In this document: in pieces, positions 51,852 through 58,168 of the stretch | How positions within the stretch are numbered: the stretch's first letter is position 1 | Layout of the letters: each line of letters begins with the position of its first letter | Assembly (NCBI RefSeq): GCF_024580735.1 | Contig: NZ_JANIJX010000005.1 | Location: 62,001-126,000 of the forward strand | Direction: 5' to 3' | From: Brevibacterium moorei | GTDB lineage: Bacteria; Actinomycetota; Actinomycetes; Actinomycetales; Brevibacteriaceae | Length of the DNA: 64,000 nt | Program-made: the position numbers and the translations under genes | Notes under the pieces: generated by a model | What the model was told of the DNA's origin: nothing | What the model saw: the letters and a program-made list of their open reading frames with translations, nothing else | Databases searched by the model: none

Positions 51852-53582
51852 TCAATCCAGACCGCGGGGGACCGCGTCGAGCAGCATACGCGTGTACTCA
51901 TCGCGCGGCCTCGCCAGCACCCGGGCGGTCGGCCCGGATTCGACCTCGTGGGCATGCGAGAGCACCAGCACCTCGTGGGCGACCTGGGCTACCACCGCGA
52001 GGTCGTGGGTGATGAACAGATAGGTCAGCCCCATTCGTTCCTGTAGCTCGGTGATGAGTTCGAGGATCTGCGCCTGCACGGTGACGTCCAGCGCGGACAC
52101 GGCCTCGTCGAAGACCACCACATCCGGGTCGACGATGAGCGCACGCGCAATCGCCACCCGCTGCAGCTGCCCGCCGGAGAGCTCGCGGGGCCGTCGATCG
52201 GCCAGCTGAGGATCGAGGGCGACCATGCGCAGCGCCTCGGCGATCCGTTCGGCGCGGTCCGATCTGGTCCCGATCCGGAAATTGCGCAGCGGTTCTGCCA
52301 GGCTCGCCCCGATCGTGTGTTTGGGATCCAGCGCGGTCGCCGGATTCTGGAACACCAGTTGGACGCGCCTGCGGTATTCGGTGTCGCGCTCCGGCGGCAG
52401 TTCCGTCACCGGCATGTCGGCGACCCTGATCCGACCGGAATCCGGTTTGAGATAGCCCGAGAGCATCTTGCCCACCGTGGACTTGCCCGAACCCGATTCG
52501 CCCACCACGCCCAGGGTCTTTCCGCGCGGAATGGTGAACGATACGTCCTCACTGCCGATCACTCCGGCGTCGGTGCGCGCATAGACCTTGGTGATGCCGT
52601 GCACCTCGACCACGGGTTCGGCGGCAGGGTCCGTCGTTCCGGCACCATCACCCGTGGCAGCGGTGGCCCCGGCGGTGTCCGCGGCAGCGCCCGCCGGAAC
52701 CTCGGTCGCGGAGAGCGCGGCCAGCTCCAGCCGTGGCACATCTGCCAGCAGCCGGCGCGTGTACTCCGATTTCGGACGTGCGATGATCCCGGCCGCCGGG
52801 CCCGATTCACGCACCCGGCCGTGCTGGACCACCGTGAGCGTCTGCGCGCGCTCCGCGGCGACCGAGAGGTCGTGGGTGATGAACAGGATGCCCATCCCGG
52901 TGTCCGCCTGCAGCCGATCGAGCAGATCGAGGATCCGCTTCTGCACCGTCACGTCCAGTGCGGACGTCGGCTCATCGGCGATCAGCAGACGCGGGCGCAG
53001 TGCGATCGCCGAGGCGATGAGCACGCGCTGGCGCATCCCGCCGGAGAGCTCGTGCGGGAACTGACCCGCGCGCAGCTCCGGTCGGTCGATCCCCACCATC
53101 TCCAGTAGGTCCACGACCCGCTGTCTGCGCGCGGTGCGGTCCAGATCGGTGTGGATGCGCAGGGACTCCTCGACATTGCCCAGAATCGTCTTGACCGGAT
53201 TGAGTGAGTTGCCCGGATCCTGCGGCACATAGCCGATCTCCTTACCGCGCAGGCGCTTGAACGCCCGCGGCGAGAGCTGCGTGAGTTCGTGTGTGCCGGA
53301 ATCCGTGTGCAGGCGGATACTGCCGCCTGACAGTTCCGCATTGCCGGCCAGCAGCCCCAAGGCCGCCGAGGCCGTGGTCGACTTGCCGGAACCCGATTCG
53401 CCCACCACCGCCGCGGTCTGGCCCGCCGGCACGCGCAGGCTGATCCGGTGCAGGGCGGGAACGGGGTCACCGGAGCGCGACCGGTAGTCCACCGATAGAT
53501 CCTCGATTTCGAGAACCGGGGTGTCATCGCCGTGCACGGTGTTCCGGGTACTGTTCGCTGTGTTCATTCGCCCAGTGTTCAT
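51852..53582 (-). CDS. ABC transporter ATPase, fused double nucleotide-binding domain (Dpp/Opp/Nik type)
   Basis: This 576-residue protein energises uptake. It contains two complete ATPase domains (about 20-285 and 320-576), each with Walker [10 protein letters not shown] and an LSGG signature ([28 protein letters not shown]). Walker B and switch His are also present twice ([12 protein letters not shown] and [12 protein letters not shown], then [11 protein letters not shown] and [11 protein letters not shown]). The linker is Ala/Gly-rich. This DppD-DppF fusion is common in actinobacterial peptide/nickel-type systems. ATG 53582-53580 overlaps the upstream permease stop. Last gene of the operon behind the cysteine leader peptide. 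Confidence 0.93.
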
Positions 53583-54433
53583 TCGCCTACCTCCCGCAGG
53601 ACGCTGCCCAGGCGGTTGGTCGCGACCACGACCGCCATCACGATAATGCCCGGCAGCACGGTCAGCCACCAGGCGGTGGCCACGAAATTGCGGCCCTCGG
53701 AGATGATCAGACCCCATTCCGGGGTGGGCGGGGGAGTCCCGTAGCCCAGGAAGCTCAGGGTCGAGATCTGCAGGATCGCGCTGCCCAGCTGCAGCACCGC
53801 CAGGGCAAGCAGCGGACCCGAGGCGTTGGGCAGGACGTGGTGGATGAGCACCTTCGTGTGATTGGCCCCCGAACCGTAGGCCGCCGCGACATAGTCACTG
53901 CGCACGATCCCCAGGGTCTGCGCGCGGGCCAGCCGAGCGAACTGGGCGATCGCGGTGATTCCCACGGCCAGGGCCACATTCACGGTGCCGAAGCCCAGTA
54001 TGATGACCACCGACAGGCTCAGCAGGATGCCGGGGATGGACACCAGCACGTCGACGATGCGCATGAGCACATCCTCGATCCAGCCGCGCTGAGTACCGGC
54101 GATCACGCCGATCGCGGTACCGATCACCAGACCGACGGCCACCGCGATGATCGCCGCCAGCAGGGACCGGCCGGCTCCGTAGACCATCCGGGCGTAGACA
54201 TCGCGGCCCACCTGATCGGTGCCGAACCAGTGTTGGGCATCCGGTGGCAGGAGCGAAGCGGTGGATCCGCCGTCCAGGGGATCCTGGCCGGTGAACAGGC
54301 CGGGGAACAGAGCCCACAGCACGGGGATCAGGACGATGAGTCCGGCCAGCAGGGTCAGGGGTTTGAGCCAGGGGGAGTTCCGCAGCGCGGTACGGCGTGG
54401 CTGAGCCTTGTTGTTCTTCAACGGGGTGTTCAT
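53579..54433 (-). CDS. ABC transporter permease, DppC type
   Basis: This 284-residue inner-membrane subunit has a polar N-terminal tail and about six membrane helices. The ATPase-coupling EAA loop contains AAAYGSGANHTKVLIHHVLP. The DppC-type features FGTDQVGRDVYARMVYGAGR and LGYGTPPPTPEWGLIISEGR are clear. ATG 54433-54431 overlaps the stop of the DppB-type gene and its own stop overlaps the ATPase start. It works with the DppB-type subunit as a heterodimeric channel. Confidence 0.93.
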   Translation of the reverse strand: MNTPLKNNKAQPRRTALRNSPWLKPLTLLAGLIVLIPVLWALFPGLFTGQDPLDGGSTASLLPPDAQHWFGTDQVGRDVYARMVYGAGRSLLAAIIAVAVGLVIGTAIGVIAGTQRGWIEDVLMRIVDVLVSIPGILLSLSVVIILGFGTVNVALAVGITAIAQFARLARAQTLGIVRSDYVAAAYGSGANHTKVLIHHVLPNASGPLLALAVLQLGSAILQISTLSFLGYGTPPPTPEWGLIISEGRNFVATAWWLTVLPGIIVMAVVVATNRLGSVLREVGE

Positions 54434-55380
54434 GCCGCCGCCTTCCGGGTGCGCAGGCGCGGGTCGATCAGTGGATAGAGCAGATCGACCAGCAGGTTGA
54501 CGATGACGAAGCCCAGTGTTGCGATCACCACGATCGTCAGGAGCACGGGATTGTCGCGGTTGGCCACGGCCTGCGCGGTCAGCGCACCGATCCCATTGCG
54601 CCCGAACACGGTCTCGGTGACCACGGCGCCGGCGACCAGTTCGCCGAACACCAGGCCCGCGATCGTCAACGCGGGACTGATCGCATTGCGCAGCACCGCG
54701 TGGACGAACAGCCAGGCGCCCGCGGCGCCCTTGGCCCGGGTGACGCGCACATAGGGCTGGGCCCTGACCTCGGCCACGGAGCGGATGAGCACCTGTGCGA
54801 TCGGCGCCGAGATCGGCAGGGCAATCGTCACCGAGGGCAGGATGAGCGATTCGAAGGGCCCGGGATCGACCACGTTGATCCAGCCCAGCCGGAAGGACAC
54901 GAACTCGACCAGGATGATGCCAAGCCAGAAGACGGGAACGGAGATGAACAGGCTGGGCAGGGAATCGGCCACGTCGCGCAGCCAGCGGAACCGGCCGTAA
55001 GAGGCCACCAGGGTCACGATAACGGCCAGGACCAGCGCGGAGACGAACCCCGTCAGGGCCAAGACCGCGGTCGAGGGCAGGGCCGCGGAGACCAGCGTCG
55101 ACACTGCGGCACCCGTCTGGGTGGAGAAACCGAAATCGCCTGTCAGGAAGCCCAGCAGCGTGCTGGCGTACTGCTGCCACCATGGCAGGTCGGCGCCGAA
55201 GGACGCCCTGATGCCCGCGATCTCGTCTTTCGACAGGCCCAGCGCAGGATCGGAGAACCGGGCCATCACGCCGTCGCCTGGCAGGATCAGCAGCAGCAGG
55301 GACGCCAGGGTGAAGGCCAGGAACAGCACCAGGACCGCCTGGCCCAGGCGCGCCAGAATGTACTTCGGAGTCGAGGTCAT
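54430..55380 (-). CDS. ABC transporter permease, DppB type
   Basis: This 316-residue inner-membrane subunit opens with the typical DppB N terminus (YILARLGQAVLVLFLAFTLA). A periplasmic loop with SFGADLPWWQQYASTLLGF follows. The EAA loop contains RAKGAAGAWLFVHAVLRNAI. The C-terminal GLVFGELVAGAVVTETVFGR is characteristic. ATG 55380-55378 overlaps the stop of the binding-protein gene. Translational coupling runs through the whole operon. Confidence 0.93.
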   Translation of the reverse strand: MTSTPKYILARLGQAVLVLFLAFTLASLLLLILPGDGVMARFSDPALGLSKDEIAGIRASFGADLPWWQQYASTLLGFLTGDFGFSTQTGAAVSTLVSAALPSTAVLALTGFVSALVLAVIVTLVASYGRFRWLRDVADSLPSLFISVPVFWLGIILVEFVSFRLGWINVVDPGPFESLILPSVTIALPISAPIAQVLIRSVAEVRAQPYVRVTRAKGAAGAWLFVHAVLRNAISPALTIAGLVFGELVAGAVVTETVFGRNGIGALTAQAVANRDNPVLLTIVVIATLGFVIVNLLVDLLYPLIDPRLRTRKAAA

Positions 55381-57146
55381 GCCTCCTCACCCCTCCCCGC
55401 ACCATCGGCCAGCCAGGTGTTGTAGAAGGTGGGCCGGCCCACTGGCTCGGTGAAGAAGCCCTGGACCTCCTGCCGGAAGCCGAAGACCTGCGGCTCCTCG
55501 AACAGCGGCAGGACCAGTGCCTGGTCGATCACGTGCTGCTGGAACTCGGCCAGGGCGCGCTCGCGGTCGGCCGCCTTGGCAGAACCCGTGATCCGGGCCA
55601 GGATCCGCTCGACCTCCTCATCGCCCCAGGCACCCGATTCCTCATCGTGGTTGGCCAGGGCGTCACGATTGTTGATCGACCATTCGCTGGCGACCACGTC
55701 GTAGTCGGCCCTGGCCACCATCGCGTGGTAGACCTGGACCTTCTCGATGTCCTGGGAATCGAGGTCCTGTTGGACCTGGTCCCCGTCGTTGATGCTCAGG
55801 CCCACGCCGATCCGTGCGAAGTCCTCCTGCACCAGGGTCATCACCTCCTTGGACCTCGGCTGGGGCAGGGCGGTGTTCGAGCGCAGGGCCAGACGCGCAC
55901 CGTCCTTGACCCGGATCCCGTCGGCGCCGCGCACCCAGCCGGCCTCATCGAGCAGGGCGTTCGCGCGATCCACATCGTGGACCCAGGCATCATCGGGCGC
56001 CTTGACGTAGCCGGCGGCCCCACGGGCGACGACCCCGGTGGCCAGCGGGTAGGTGTCGGTGAACAGTTTGGTGAGGATCCGCTGCCGGTCGATCGAGGCG
56101 ATGAGGGCCCGGCGGACCCGGATATCGGCCAGCAGGCGGTGCCGGGAGCGCAACGAGATGTTGTTGTTGACCCCGTTGGTGGGCGCGGCCACCAATTGCA
56201 GGCCCTTGTCCTTGATGCGCGCCTGGTCGGGCGCCTGGATGTCGCGCACACCCTGCACCTGGCCGGACACGAGGGAGCCGATGCGCACCGAGTACTCCTT
56301 GTTGACCCGGTAGTCGATCCCGTCCAGGTACGCCCTGCCCTGGTGTTTGAAGTGCGGTGGGGCCCAGTCGTAGTCCTCCCTGGCCCTCACACTCAGTAGT
56401 GTGCCGACCCGTTCAGCGGTGATCGCGAAGGGTCCGCAGGTGGCGATCTTCGCCGCACTTCCCGGCCCGAAGCCCGCGGAGTCCAGCTTCAGTGTGGCGT
56501 CGGCCAACAGGCCGGAGTTCATCGTGGAGACCGCCTGGGCGAAGCCGGGCGCCGGCTTGGAGAAGCGGAAGCGCACGGTGTGTTCGTCGAGCACCTCGCC
56601 GCCGGCGTAGTTCGTCACCTGTTCGGACACGGCAAGGCCGCGTGCCTTGTCGCCGCGGCCGTAGAGCTCGAAATTGTCCACCACGTTCTGCGCGGTCAGC
56701 GCCGAGCCGTCGGAGTAGGTGATGCCGGGGCGCAACGTGAAGGTGTATTCGGTGGCGTCGGCGTTGATGCGCGGCAGTGCCGTGGCGATCCAGGGATAGA
56801 GCTTGAGTGTCTGCGGATCCTGATAGAGCAGACGCGCGGTGATGTTGTTGAGTATTCCGCCGTTGGGGTAGAAACCGCCTGCCGGCGGGTAGAGCACCGT
56901 CCAGCTCTGCGGTTCGAAATAGTCGAGTACCCCGCCGGGCACGGGCTTCGCGCCGGCGGGCACCGCGGTATCGGGGTGGGTGCAGGCGCTCAGCAGCAGC
57001 ATGCCGGTCAGGCCCAGGCCAGCGCCGAGCACGGCGCGGCGGGTGGGTCCGGGACTGCTCGGGGGCACGCCGGCGCCCGAGTCCTGTTGGCTTGTGGAAT
57101 GGTCGAATGGCCGATGTGGGCGCGCAAAGGGGCGCAAAGGAGGCAC
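55377..57146 (-). CDS. ABC transporter substrate-binding lipoprotein (family 5), likely for a sulfur compound
   Basis: This SBP_bac_5 lipoprotein captures substrate outside the membrane. The export signal has PTRRAVLGAGLGLTGMLLLS followed by the lipobox Cys. Domain blocks include TARLLYQDPQTLKLYPWIAT, FTLRPGITYSDGSALTAQ and RRALIASIDRQRIL. The 589-residue length assumes GTG 57146; no strong Shine-Dalgarno is visible, and GTG 57068 would give a shorter, more classic signal. Overall similarity resembles actinobacterial members found with LLM monooxygenases. A Cys-rich leader peptide ends 58 nt upstream, so a sulfur-containing substrate is inferred. Confidence 0.88.
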   Translation of the reverse strand: MPPLRPFARPHRPFDHSTSQQDSGAGVPPSSPGPTRRAVLGAGLGLTGMLLLSACTHPDTAVPAGAKPVPGGVLDYFEPQSWTVLYPPAGGFYPNGGILNNITARLLYQDPQTLKLYPWIATALPRINADATEYTFTLRPGITYSDGSALTAQNVVDNFELYGRGDKARGLAVSEQVTNYAGGEVLDEHTVRFRFSKPAPGFAQAVSTMNSGLLADATLKLDSAGFGPGSAAKIATCGPFAITAERVGTLLSVRAREDYDWAPPHFKHQGRAYLDGIDYRVNKEYSVRIGSLVSGQVQGVRDIQAPDQARIKDKGLQLVAAPTNGVNNNISLRSRHRLLADIRVRRALIASIDRQRILTKLFTDTYPLATGVVARGAAGYVKAPDDAWVHDVDRANALLDEAGWVRGADGIRVKDGARLALRSNTALPQPRSKEVMTLVQEDFARIGVGLSINDGDQVQQDLDSQDIEKVQVYHAMVARADYDVVASEWSINNRDALANHDEESGAWGDEEVERILARITGSAKAADRERALAEFQQHVIDQALVLPLFEEPQVFGFRQEVQGFFTEPVGRPTFYNTWLADGAGRGEEA

Positions 57147-57159
57147 GAAAGGTCTTTCT

Positions 57160-57187
57160 GAGGAATGTGAACGGGGGAGACGGGGGA
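57160..57187 (-). promoter_or_regulatory. C-rich, G-poor segment after the leader peptide (possible Rho-utilisation site)
   Basis: In the minus-strand mRNA this 28-nt stretch contains 16 C and only 2 G, directly after the leader-peptide stop and before the binding-protein start. C>G bubbles are typical Rho-loading sites, so Rho-dependent attenuation is possible. Inference only. Confidence 0.4.
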
Positions 57188-57204
57188 CGCTCAGCGGCGT
57201 CGCG

Positions 57205-57300
57205 TCAGTGACAGCAGCAGGTGGTGACTGCCATCAGGTCGATGTGCAGACGGCGCCAGCAGCACAGGCACTGCGGACGGGCGGACACAGAGAAGTTCAC
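57205..57300 (-). CDS. Cysteine-rich regulatory leader peptide (Ms5788A-like)
   Basis: A 31-codon minus-strand frame from GTG 57300-57298 to TGA 57207-57205 was found by reading the leader of the ABC operon. Its central part reads QCLCCWRRLHIDLMAV and it ends T-T-C-C-C-H, giving six cysteines. The R-x-H-I-D-L-x-x-V...C pattern is that of actinobacterial Cys-responsive leader peptides, where ribosome stalling at Cys codons controls sulfur genes (shown in mycobacteria). GGAG lies 2 nt before the GTG; GTG 57288-57286 is an alternative start. The stop is 58 nt from the binding-protein start. Type and role are inferred from the motif and position. Confidence 0.8.
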   Translation of the reverse strand: MNFSVSARPQCLCCWRRLHIDLMAVTTCCCH

Positions 57301-57409
57301 TGCTCCATTGAACCCCAGAAGCCCGGGCGGTGCCTAATCGGGTGTCATCTCGGCGACACAGCCGATGTCACACTGTGGCGTCGGCGCGGAGACGGGCGCG
57401 GACCTCTGA

Positions 57410-57415
57410 TAGGTT
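57410..57415 (+). promoter_or_regulatory. Leaderless -10 element (TAGGTT) of the VOC gene
   Basis: TAGGTT is followed by CGCGCC and then ATG at 57422. The 6-nt gap predicts a leaderless mRNA. No Shine-Dalgarno is present. Confidence 0.6.
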
Positions 57416-57421
57416 CGCGCC

Positions 57422-58168
57422 ATGACTTCGAACACCGATACCGGAGCGACTCCGCAGACGCCCGCGACCCAGATCCCGGCCGAACTGGACCACCTGGTCT
57501 ACGCCGTGCCCAACCTGGCCGAGGCCACGGCGGAATTCGCCCGGCTGACCGGCCTGGCCCCCGAATTCGGAGGAGCCCACGTGGGTCTGGGGACCGCGAA
57601 TTTCCTGGTCCCCGTGGTGCCGGCCGGTTGGCCCGCCGATTCCCGGACCTACCTGGAGATCCTCGGCCCGGACCCGCAGCAGGCCGGTGCCGCACTGGGC
57701 AAATCGCAGCTGGGCAATGTCGATTCCGCACACCTGCAGCGCTGGGCGATCCACCCCGCGGACTTCCCCGCCACGGTTGACGCCGCCCACGCAGCCGAGG
57801 TCCCCGTCGGCCGGGTGCACGAGATGTCGCGGGCGACCCCGGAGGGCGGCCTGCTGCAGTGGCGTCTGACCCGCGCCGAGCACGCCGCAGACGAGCCACT
57901 ACCCTTCGGCGGCGGTCTGCCCTTCCTGATCGACTGGCGCGATTCGGTACACCCCGCCGAGCGCCTGCACGGTAACGGTTCGGCGGTCGCCACGCTGGAG
58001 GAGCTGGCCTTCTTCGGTCCCGATCCGCAGGCCTTCGCCGCGGCCCTGGCCGTGCTGGGCATCGAGGCGGAGGTCGAACAGGCGTCTACTCCCGGCTACC
58101 GCGCTGTACTCGGCACCCCGGGCGGCCAGGTGGAGCTGTCGACCGAACACGGCATCCAGCAGATCTGA
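57422..58168 (+). CDS. VOC-superfamily glyoxalase-like protein
   Basis: This 248-residue protein carries a glyoxalase-like fold. The N-terminal half begins ELDHLVYAVPNLAEATAEFA with a His at the usual first metal position, and has TANFLVPV and TYLEILGPDP, where Glu is a likely ligand. The C-terminal half repeats the beta-alpha-beta pattern (VATLEELAFFGPDPQAFAAA, GGQVELSTEHG). Function is unknown; members range from lyases to dioxygenases. The gene is divergent from the ABC operon and its leader, sharing a 121-bp control region. ATG at 57422 is supported by the leaderless element. Confidence 0.82.
   Translation: MTSNTDTGATPQTPATQIPAELDHLVYAVPNLAEATAEFARLTGLAPEFGGAHVGLGTANFLVPVVPAGWPADSRTYLEILGPDPQQAGAALGKSQLGNVDSAHLQRWAIHPADFPATVDAAHAAEVPVGRVHEMSRATPEGGLLQWRLTRAEHAADEPLPFGGGLPFLIDWRDSVHPAERLHGNGSAVATLEELAFFGPDPQAFAAALAVLGIEAEVEQASTPGYRAVLGTPGGQVELSTEHGIQQI

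Follow-up and report, generated by a model that had tools for sequence, protein, structure and literature searches.

A short reading frame with a conserved UGU cysteine codon is a probable cysteine-responsive leader of a likely organosulfur importer in Brevibacterium moorei

What is a reading frame of 31 codons, six of them for cysteine, doing ahead of a seemingly ordinary peptide-type ABC transporter operon? The question is raised by a 64,000-nucleotide stretch of the Brevibacterium moorei genome (contig NZ_JANIJX010000005.1, positions 62,001 to 126,000; hereafter the window), in which a gap of 275 bp separates the start (57422) of a divergent, plus-strand glyoxalase-like gene (57422-58168) from the start (57146) of a minus-strand gene for the substrate-binding protein (SBP) of the transporter (57146-55377). 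On the minus strand this gap holds an open reading frame (ORF), 57300-57205, with a GTG start and a TGA stop, encoding the peptide V/M-NFSVSARPQCLCCWRRLHIDLMAVTTCCCH with Cys at positions 11, 13, 14, 28, 29 and 30, the core W-R-R-L-H-I-D-L at codons 15-22 (core Arg, R17) and the tail TTCCCH. A first-pass annotation made from the sequence alone had described the gap and the frame exactly; the interval it assigned, 57146..57300, encloses the leader and also takes in 58 nt beyond its stop codon. Our analysis indicates that the leader probably attenuates translation of an organosulfur importer in response to cysteine, and that its conserved element is a single Cys codon, spelled UGU and constant in its distance from the core, not the Cys run on which the annotation had laid weight.

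The pattern is not one that the window yields readily, as R-x-H-[ILV]-D with at least three Cys in the final 8 codons occurs once in the real window and in none of 30 Markov-1 shuffles of the 64 kb. A search of 119 genomes found a TIGR04028 gene, the family of this SBP, over the cut-off in 50, of which 46 are Brevibacterium, and 47 Brevibacterium loci were examined (L004-L047, L049, the window and L050, which has a partial gene). In 44 of the 47, a short ORF of 8-31 codons begins 6-7 nt past a -10-like hexamer that itself lies 17-18 nt past a -35-like hexamer, compared with 12 hits, one of them Cys-terminal, in 1880 shuffled upstream regions. At L042, one of the three misses, the contig begins within the leader and RRLHIDLMLVTSTSC followed by the stop is still visible. 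The R-x-H-[IVL]-D core is present in 24 of the 44 full leaders, or in 25 of 47 gaps when the contig-cut L042 is counted, which makes chance very unlikely and bears out the expectation that orthologous gaps would share the core.

The 44 leaders fall into three clades and five others. Clade A (16 leaders) has 26 codons, the motif W-[RH]-R-[LI]-H-[IVL]-D-L and mostly the ending SSNC; clade B (5 leaders) reads CWRRRHID[NH]MV[IV]TT(S/A)(S/T)C; clade C (18 leaders) also has 26 codons and ends in Cys, and has lost the core. Clade C loci including L008, L010, L013 and L015 start with ATG, span 26 codons and retain UGU-UGA without any R-x-H-x-D core. The remaining five are L009, L026, L012, L039 and the window, L009 and L026 being cut down to 8 codons (MRTNGADC, then stop) by an apparent 54-nt in-frame deletion. 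In clade A the mean entropies of the three codon positions are 0.36/0.32/0.63, the third position being the most variable (permutation p 0.008), and at R12 (His once), R13, D17, L18 and S24 the codon varies while the residue is kept, which points to selection on the peptide. Clade B, with 4 distinct sequences, gives p 0.05 in this test.

The Cys-Cys-Cys run was ruled out as a conserved feature, since it is found in 1 of the 44 genus leaders, that of the window; of the other 43, 42 contain one to three Cys codons and one contains none. What persists is the end of the frame. TGT closes 42 of the 44 leaders; L012 closes with Leu instead, and the window has TGT as its penultimate codon (codon 30, the third of the TGC TGC TGT run and residue 14 from the core Arg). 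Of the 44 SBP genes behind these leaders, 40 have an assigned start, and in those 40, some of them truncated where the locus ends, Cys is spelled TGC 76 times and TGT 0 times, so the UGU spelling does not reflect a host preference. The coding-like ORFs of the window contain 15 TGT and 88 TGC.

The leader model NF042934 carries these observations beyond the genus. Among NCBIfam models it alone matches the window peptide with an E value of 1 or less, and the leader is in turn its top match in the whole genome, albeit a weak one (16.1 bits, E 0.06 for one genome). The peptide has the core and a Cys 13 residues after the first Arg (R17-L-H-I-D-L...C30), as in the NF042934 pattern. The likeness to actinobacterial leaders proposed by the first-pass annotation holds as regards the R-x-H-x-D...C type, while no match to Ms5788A was found; the orthologous leader L014 matches another such model, Ms4527A, weakly (17.8 bits, cut-off 45). 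No convincing further NF042934 leader was found in the genome of the window, the next seven matches scoring 14.6 bits or less, and the two of these whose surroundings were listed, L053 and L054, look like chance matches. In the class, NF042934 exceeds its cut-off in 150 of 246 genomes; in a draw of 246 genomes from the phylum, scanned for leaders outside the class, the 13 with a match at E 1e-4 are all labelled as the same class or the same order.

Across the class, the Cys codon is spelled almost without exception as UGU. Residues were numbered from the core Arg (R1-x-x-[VIM]-D5), which makes the key Cys residue 14, at 109 places that carry about two dozen family labels, 30 of them delivered as loci and 79 chosen by hand with the codons unseen, mainly one per genome. 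Residue 14 is Cys TGT in 102 of 102 leaders parsed by script and in the 7 others read at the match. A further 26 parsed loci gave 17 new TGT and one TGC (L273, 25.9 bits, below the cut-off), the rest being five already counted, two repeats (L270, L271) and one misparsed (L268, the place of L209). In total, 126 of 127 class leaders (L075-L104, L185-L290) spell the residue-14 Cys as UGU, a count that does not represent independent events, as many class leaders are related. The wobble base of codon 14 carries 2.00 bits (101 sequences), other third positions shown carry 1.16 or less, and the base after it is G in 1 of 101. Other, nearby Cys codons of the 102 leaders are mostly TGC (residue 7, 55 TGC and 3 TGT; residue 12, 32 TGC and 9 TGT), although TGT is common within Cys runs of class leaders. 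Of 151 Cys codons in coding-like ORFs flanking the 30 delivered loci, 26 are TGT. The literature searches returned no statement of such a rule, and none was aimed at it by name, so it may be known.

The almost uniform choice of the rarer spelling hints at how such gauges work. Quite unlikely, in our estimate, but worth stating is that the leader family reads UGU specifically and not UGC. The A37 modification of tRNA-Cys is sulfur- and SAM-dependent (SAM, S-adenosylmethionine), and such a gauge might report both the charging of Cys-tRNA and, for example through that modification, how well tRNA-Cys(GCA) copes with a wobble codon, thereby integrating cysteine and SAM supply, with clade C reduced to a bare 26-codon ORF with UGU-stop. 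Were control lost on changing UGU to UGC, the family would be a codon-specific sensor and its Cys richness beside the point; the idea of a Cys-rich leader would then sharpen to the spelling of one codon.

The fixed spacing also bears on nascent-peptide arrest, in which the R-x-H-x-D core in the exit tunnel would halt the ribosome while UGU occupies the A or P site, release would depend on cysteine or Cys-tRNA and the Cys run would be decoration. The distance from the core to the key Cys is 13 residues throughout the class with residues 11-13 variable, and clades A and B retain core and spacing with one Cys after the core, both as arrest would have it; however, the ORF and UGU-stop persist in clade C, where the core is gone, and the long Cys runs of some class leaders suit codon counting. 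We regard arrest as a tentative possibility, against which we lean.

A DNA-level explanation of the conserved end is that TGTTGAG is an operator at about +75, the ORF being incidental and the UGU spelling part of the operator. Indeed, ATTGTTGA is identical in 22 aligned sequences of clades A and C (and L009), no peptide-level constraint is seen in clade C, and many of these genomes have the near-palindrome CTCAATRTTAAG immediately ahead of the -35. Yet clade A shows peptide-level constraint, the 54-nt deletion of L009 and L026 preserves the frame and Cys-stop, the class leaders fix UGU mostly without TGA next and with no neighbouring wobble base fixed, and the window sequence at this place is TGTCACTGA, which together leave an operator highly improbable. 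As an observation in its own right, the near-palindrome stands directly 5' of the -35 in clade A and C loci and is a possible operator.

The usual geometry in the genus is TTGACn-N17/18-TTAACT-N6/7-[A/G]TG, and such promoter-like hexamers would have transcription begin at the first codon of the leader, in the style of a leaderless mRNA. In the window, an RNA of 184 nt folds at -56 kcal/mol with a z of -2.55. The aligned clade C leaders, 13 of 18 with an MH or MR start, place leader nt 12-19 (CUUCGGGC) opposite GCCCGAAG, which overlaps the SBP Shine-Dalgarno sequence. In this alignment 96.9% of cells are paired, compared with 33-63% in shifted registers, one compensatory pair occurs in 2 of 12 distinct sequences (L015, L032), and, in a test of 40 leaders, 10 of the 13 pair better than their shuffles (p 0.05 or less). 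Pairing over the Shine-Dalgarno sequence favours, with moderate strength, control of translation. Conserved RNA structure among 11 clade A sequences was uninformative (covariation term -0.05 of -22.26 kcal/mol).

Amino-acid leaders frequently act by transcription attenuation, Rho-dependent or intrinsic, in which translation of the leader sets whether transcription goes on. That mode would be suited, in its Rho-dependent form, by the C-rich, G-poor stretch between leader and SBP gene in the window, whereas no intrinsic-terminator-like site was found in 56900-57600 and the leader stop lies only 50-154 nt from the SBP start in the 40 of 44 loci with an assigned start. We consider it unlikely.

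For the translational attenuator, we propose the following mechanism. A leaderless mRNA would begin at the leader GTG, putting translation of the leader first. While Cys-tRNA is plentiful, the ribosome would clear the UGU at codon 30 and terminate, whereupon the 5' part of the leader RNA would re-pair near the SBP ribosome-binding site and keep the importer low. When Cys-tRNA is scarce, the ribosome and queued followers would stall at UGU, possibly aided by the R-x-H-I-D-L stretch some 9-13 residues back in the exit tunnel, and would hold the leader RNA open for translation of the importer. The importer, comprising the TIGR04028 SBP, two permeases and a double ATPase, would then take up an organosulfur compound. 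That cysteine is the signal is suggested by analogy with the mycobacterial leaders discussed below.

The first-pass annotation had also put forward this otherwise generic Dpp/Opp transporter as a candidate importer of a sulfur compound, and TIGR04028 does carry marks of sulfur metabolism independent of the leader. The operon (Table 1) encodes two separate permeases; the apparent 608-aa fused permease (ORF 53579-55405) is an artefact of a too-early start, DppB lying in another frame (54430-55380). Behind the ATPase, 8 of the 11 relatives' loci tested carry TIGR04027, a luciferase-like monooxygenase (LLM) family, with L061 just under the cut-off, and in 5 of these 8 loci carboxymuconolactone decarboxylase (CMD)/alkylhydroperoxidase genes come next. 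L060 has a PatB-like C-S lyase gene in that place (304.5 bits, cut-off 340). The L060 operon and the L012 leader belong to the same genome.

Of 9 Corynebacterium loci, 6 carry the operator TAGAC-N6-GTCTA, the McbR consensus given in PMC2723105, within 450 bp ahead of the matched gene part, perfectly in 4 and with a single mismatch in 2; none of 8 loci from other genera shows it there. A TIGR04028 gene of C. glutamicum exceeds the cut-off, and PMC2580772 and PMC2807442 assign to the McbR regulon its cg2678-74 cluster, whose genes carry the annotations periplasmic subunit, permease, duplicated ATPase and carboxymuconolactone decarboxylase. At L001, a SAM riboswitch (RF00162, 56.1 bits, gathering 44.4) extends as far as the ribosome-binding site of a leader ORF encoding RRRHVDHC...ACR, a possible SAM-and-cysteine tandem switch ahead of this TIGR04028 operon; NF042934 does not match this leader, whose Cys codon is TGC. 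The 3' strand of riboswitch helix P1 (L001:775-960) contains the Shine-Dalgarno-like GGAGG of that leader. The TIGR04028 operon is present in only 1 of 11 genomes of the genus of L001, searched at E 1e-150. An Rfam search of 14 further loci gave two thiamine pyrophosphate (TPP) riboswitches only, both on the minus strand and close to TIGR04028 loci in two Rothia genomes (L111:474-586, L118:591-694).

Genes behind class leaders point the same way: 9 of 10 tested match sulfur-related or monooxygenase families and one is unmatched. The nine comprise three of NirA/sulfite-reductase type, a cysteine synthase, two sulfatase-like, one MsnO8-type and two NtaA/DmoA-type, the monooxygenases being of types often tied to organosulfur use; only the cysteine synthase and MsnO8 exceed the curated cut-off, most of the genes being cut by locus ends. 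As the ten were drawn from the 16 of a narrow-pattern parse, Cys-run (RRAVD) leaders are hardly represented. Collectively, the McbR operators, the SAM riboswitch, the monooxygenase and C-S lyase partners and the leader-linked genes make an organosulfur importer likely, and we would guess at an S-substituted cysteine or a small peptide of it as a plausible substrate. The scarcely characterised TIGR04028 importer family thereby gains a likely substrate class.

Several observations weigh against this reading. At the level of the leader, the window peptide matches NF042934 (residues 15-30) at 16.9 bits, below the curated cut-off of 27. Among 8 further leaders, L014 alone passes (30.8 bits), four score 19.1, 13.8, 13.1 and 12.3, and three are unmatched; since its orthologue L014 passes, the window leader appears as a divergent relative. 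The promoter-plus-ORF scan found no leader at L036 and L049. L012 has the core and no Cys, ending early where the key Cys would be expected. The third-position test gives no signal in clade C (p 0.85), where the residues from start codon to stop seem to drift freely, and the absence of the core there means that the core is not essential to whatever clade C leaders do. The core-plus-Cys pattern was found in 0 of 51 TIGR04028 loci outside Brevibacterium (of 80 kept from 427 relatives found, the other 29 being Brevibacterium), although that pattern is blind to clade C-like leaders and a few of those loci have less than 700 nt upstream. At the RNA level, the covariation score of the clade C pairing is matched by 9 of 500 shuffled alignments, and pairing is no better than in shuffles for the window (p 0.28), for clades A (0.08-0.77) and B (0.80-0.98) and for the five remaining clade C leaders (0.16-0.69). 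The hexamers of the window are weak (TAGGCA-N18-TTCAAT-N6-GTG, 8 of 12 consensus matches), and a generic promoter scan gave nothing at the window leader. As to the transporter, the gene tested behind the ATPase did not prove to be TIGR04027 at L059 and L070, which are among the nearer relatives of the window and have an SDR-type (short-chain dehydrogenase/reductase) gene, or at L060; no gene of the window genome exceeds the TIGR04027 cut-off and the window shows the transporter alone. Finally, we take cg2678 to be the C. glutamicum TIGR04028 gene from gene order.

Some of these points would suit a decayed leader, the window ORF being a relic without regulatory role: its genome lacks a TIGR04027 gene over the cut-off, its Cys run is odd, its hexamers are weak, and L012 suggests that leaders do decay. 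Nevertheless, the core, spacing, UGU codon, frame and leaderless geometry are all retained and the binding protein is intact, and we judge decay very unlikely. A functioning cysteine-responsive attenuator is the more probable reading for the window.

Table 1. Leader, RNA, promoter-like and operon features, in window coordinates
Feature	Position	Strand	Basis or remark
Cys leader ORF, 31 codons, GTG start, TGA stop	57205..57300	minus	ORF reading; conserved in orthologous gaps
Core W-R-R-L-H-I-D-L, leader codons 15-22	57235..57258	minus	NF042934 match residues 15-30
Cys-Cys-Cys run, codons 28-30 (TGC TGC TGT)	57211..57219	minus	absent from the other 43 genus leaders
Key Cys codon UGU, position 14 from core Arg 17	57211..57213	minus	genus and class leader counts
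-35-like hexamer TAGGCA (weak)	57331..57336	minus	18-nt spacer to TTCAAT; relatives TTGACn, 17-18 nt
-10-like hexamer TTCAAT, 6 nt ahead of leader GTG	57307..57312	minus	leaderless geometry
Predicted hairpin, 3' arm holding Cys codons (strong; folded for this genome)	57209..57236	minus	RNA folding
5' end GUGAAC, predicted pairing with GUUCAC (57167-57172) just upstream of the SBP ribosome-binding region	57295..57300	minus	p 0.28 vs shuffles
Shine-Dalgarno-like GAAAGA of binding-protein gene	57153..57158	minus	relatives: AAAGGA/GAAGGA at comparable place
Substrate-binding lipoprotein, TIGR04028	55377..57146	minus	723.9 bits vs cut-off 468.5, residues 74-579; Pfam SBP_bac_5
DppB/NikB-like permease	54430..55380	minus	Opp2B 224.6 bits (cut-off 350)
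DppC/NikC-like permease, start approximate	53579..54400	minus	domain at residues 351-605 of the 608-aa ORF 53579-55405
Double ABC ATPase	51852..53717	minus	two ABC_tran stretches

As far as our literature searches go, three aspects are new, namely the target of the leader, the dispensability of the Cys run across the genus and the UGU rule. Judged from its sequence, the window ORF likely works like the actinobacterial Cys leaders, as a divergent relative of them. With the leaders of NF042934 ('cis_reg_atten, putative leader peptide') it shares the R-x-[HA]-[VIM]-D-L core, a Cys 13 residues after the core Arg, the UGU spelling and a place ahead of sulfur-related genes; it differs in its sub-threshold score, in A-V-T-T after the core where R-V-A-x is commoner, in an N-terminal CLCC cluster and in its Opp-type importer target. 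In mycobacteria, leaderless Cys-rich upstream ORFs (uORFs) precede cysA2, nirA and Rv0485 according to Shell 2015 (PMC4633059), and Cys-responsive attenuation from such uORFs, as reported there and in Canestrari 2020 as cited by PMC9094748 and PMC13236596, is the precedent for the family. The window leader resembles them in its putative leaderless geometry, its Cys codons near the C-terminus and its sulfur-related downstream genes. Here, however, the target is a TIGR04028 transporter, and the mycobacterial-type Cys run near the C-terminus recurs in the CCC of the window and not in the other 43 genus leaders, Brevibacterium conserving one terminal Cys codon. Compared with the TIGR04028/TIGR04027/TIGR04029-30 module (SBP, LLM monooxygenase, CMD/alkylhydroperoxidase), the window has the SBP and, as in relatives, the transporter genes, and these alone. 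The C. glutamicum cg2678-74 cluster likewise combines a periplasmic subunit, permease and duplicated ATPase under sulfur control, which is exerted there by the transcriptional repressor McbR at its operator and, in the window, probably by a leader peptide.

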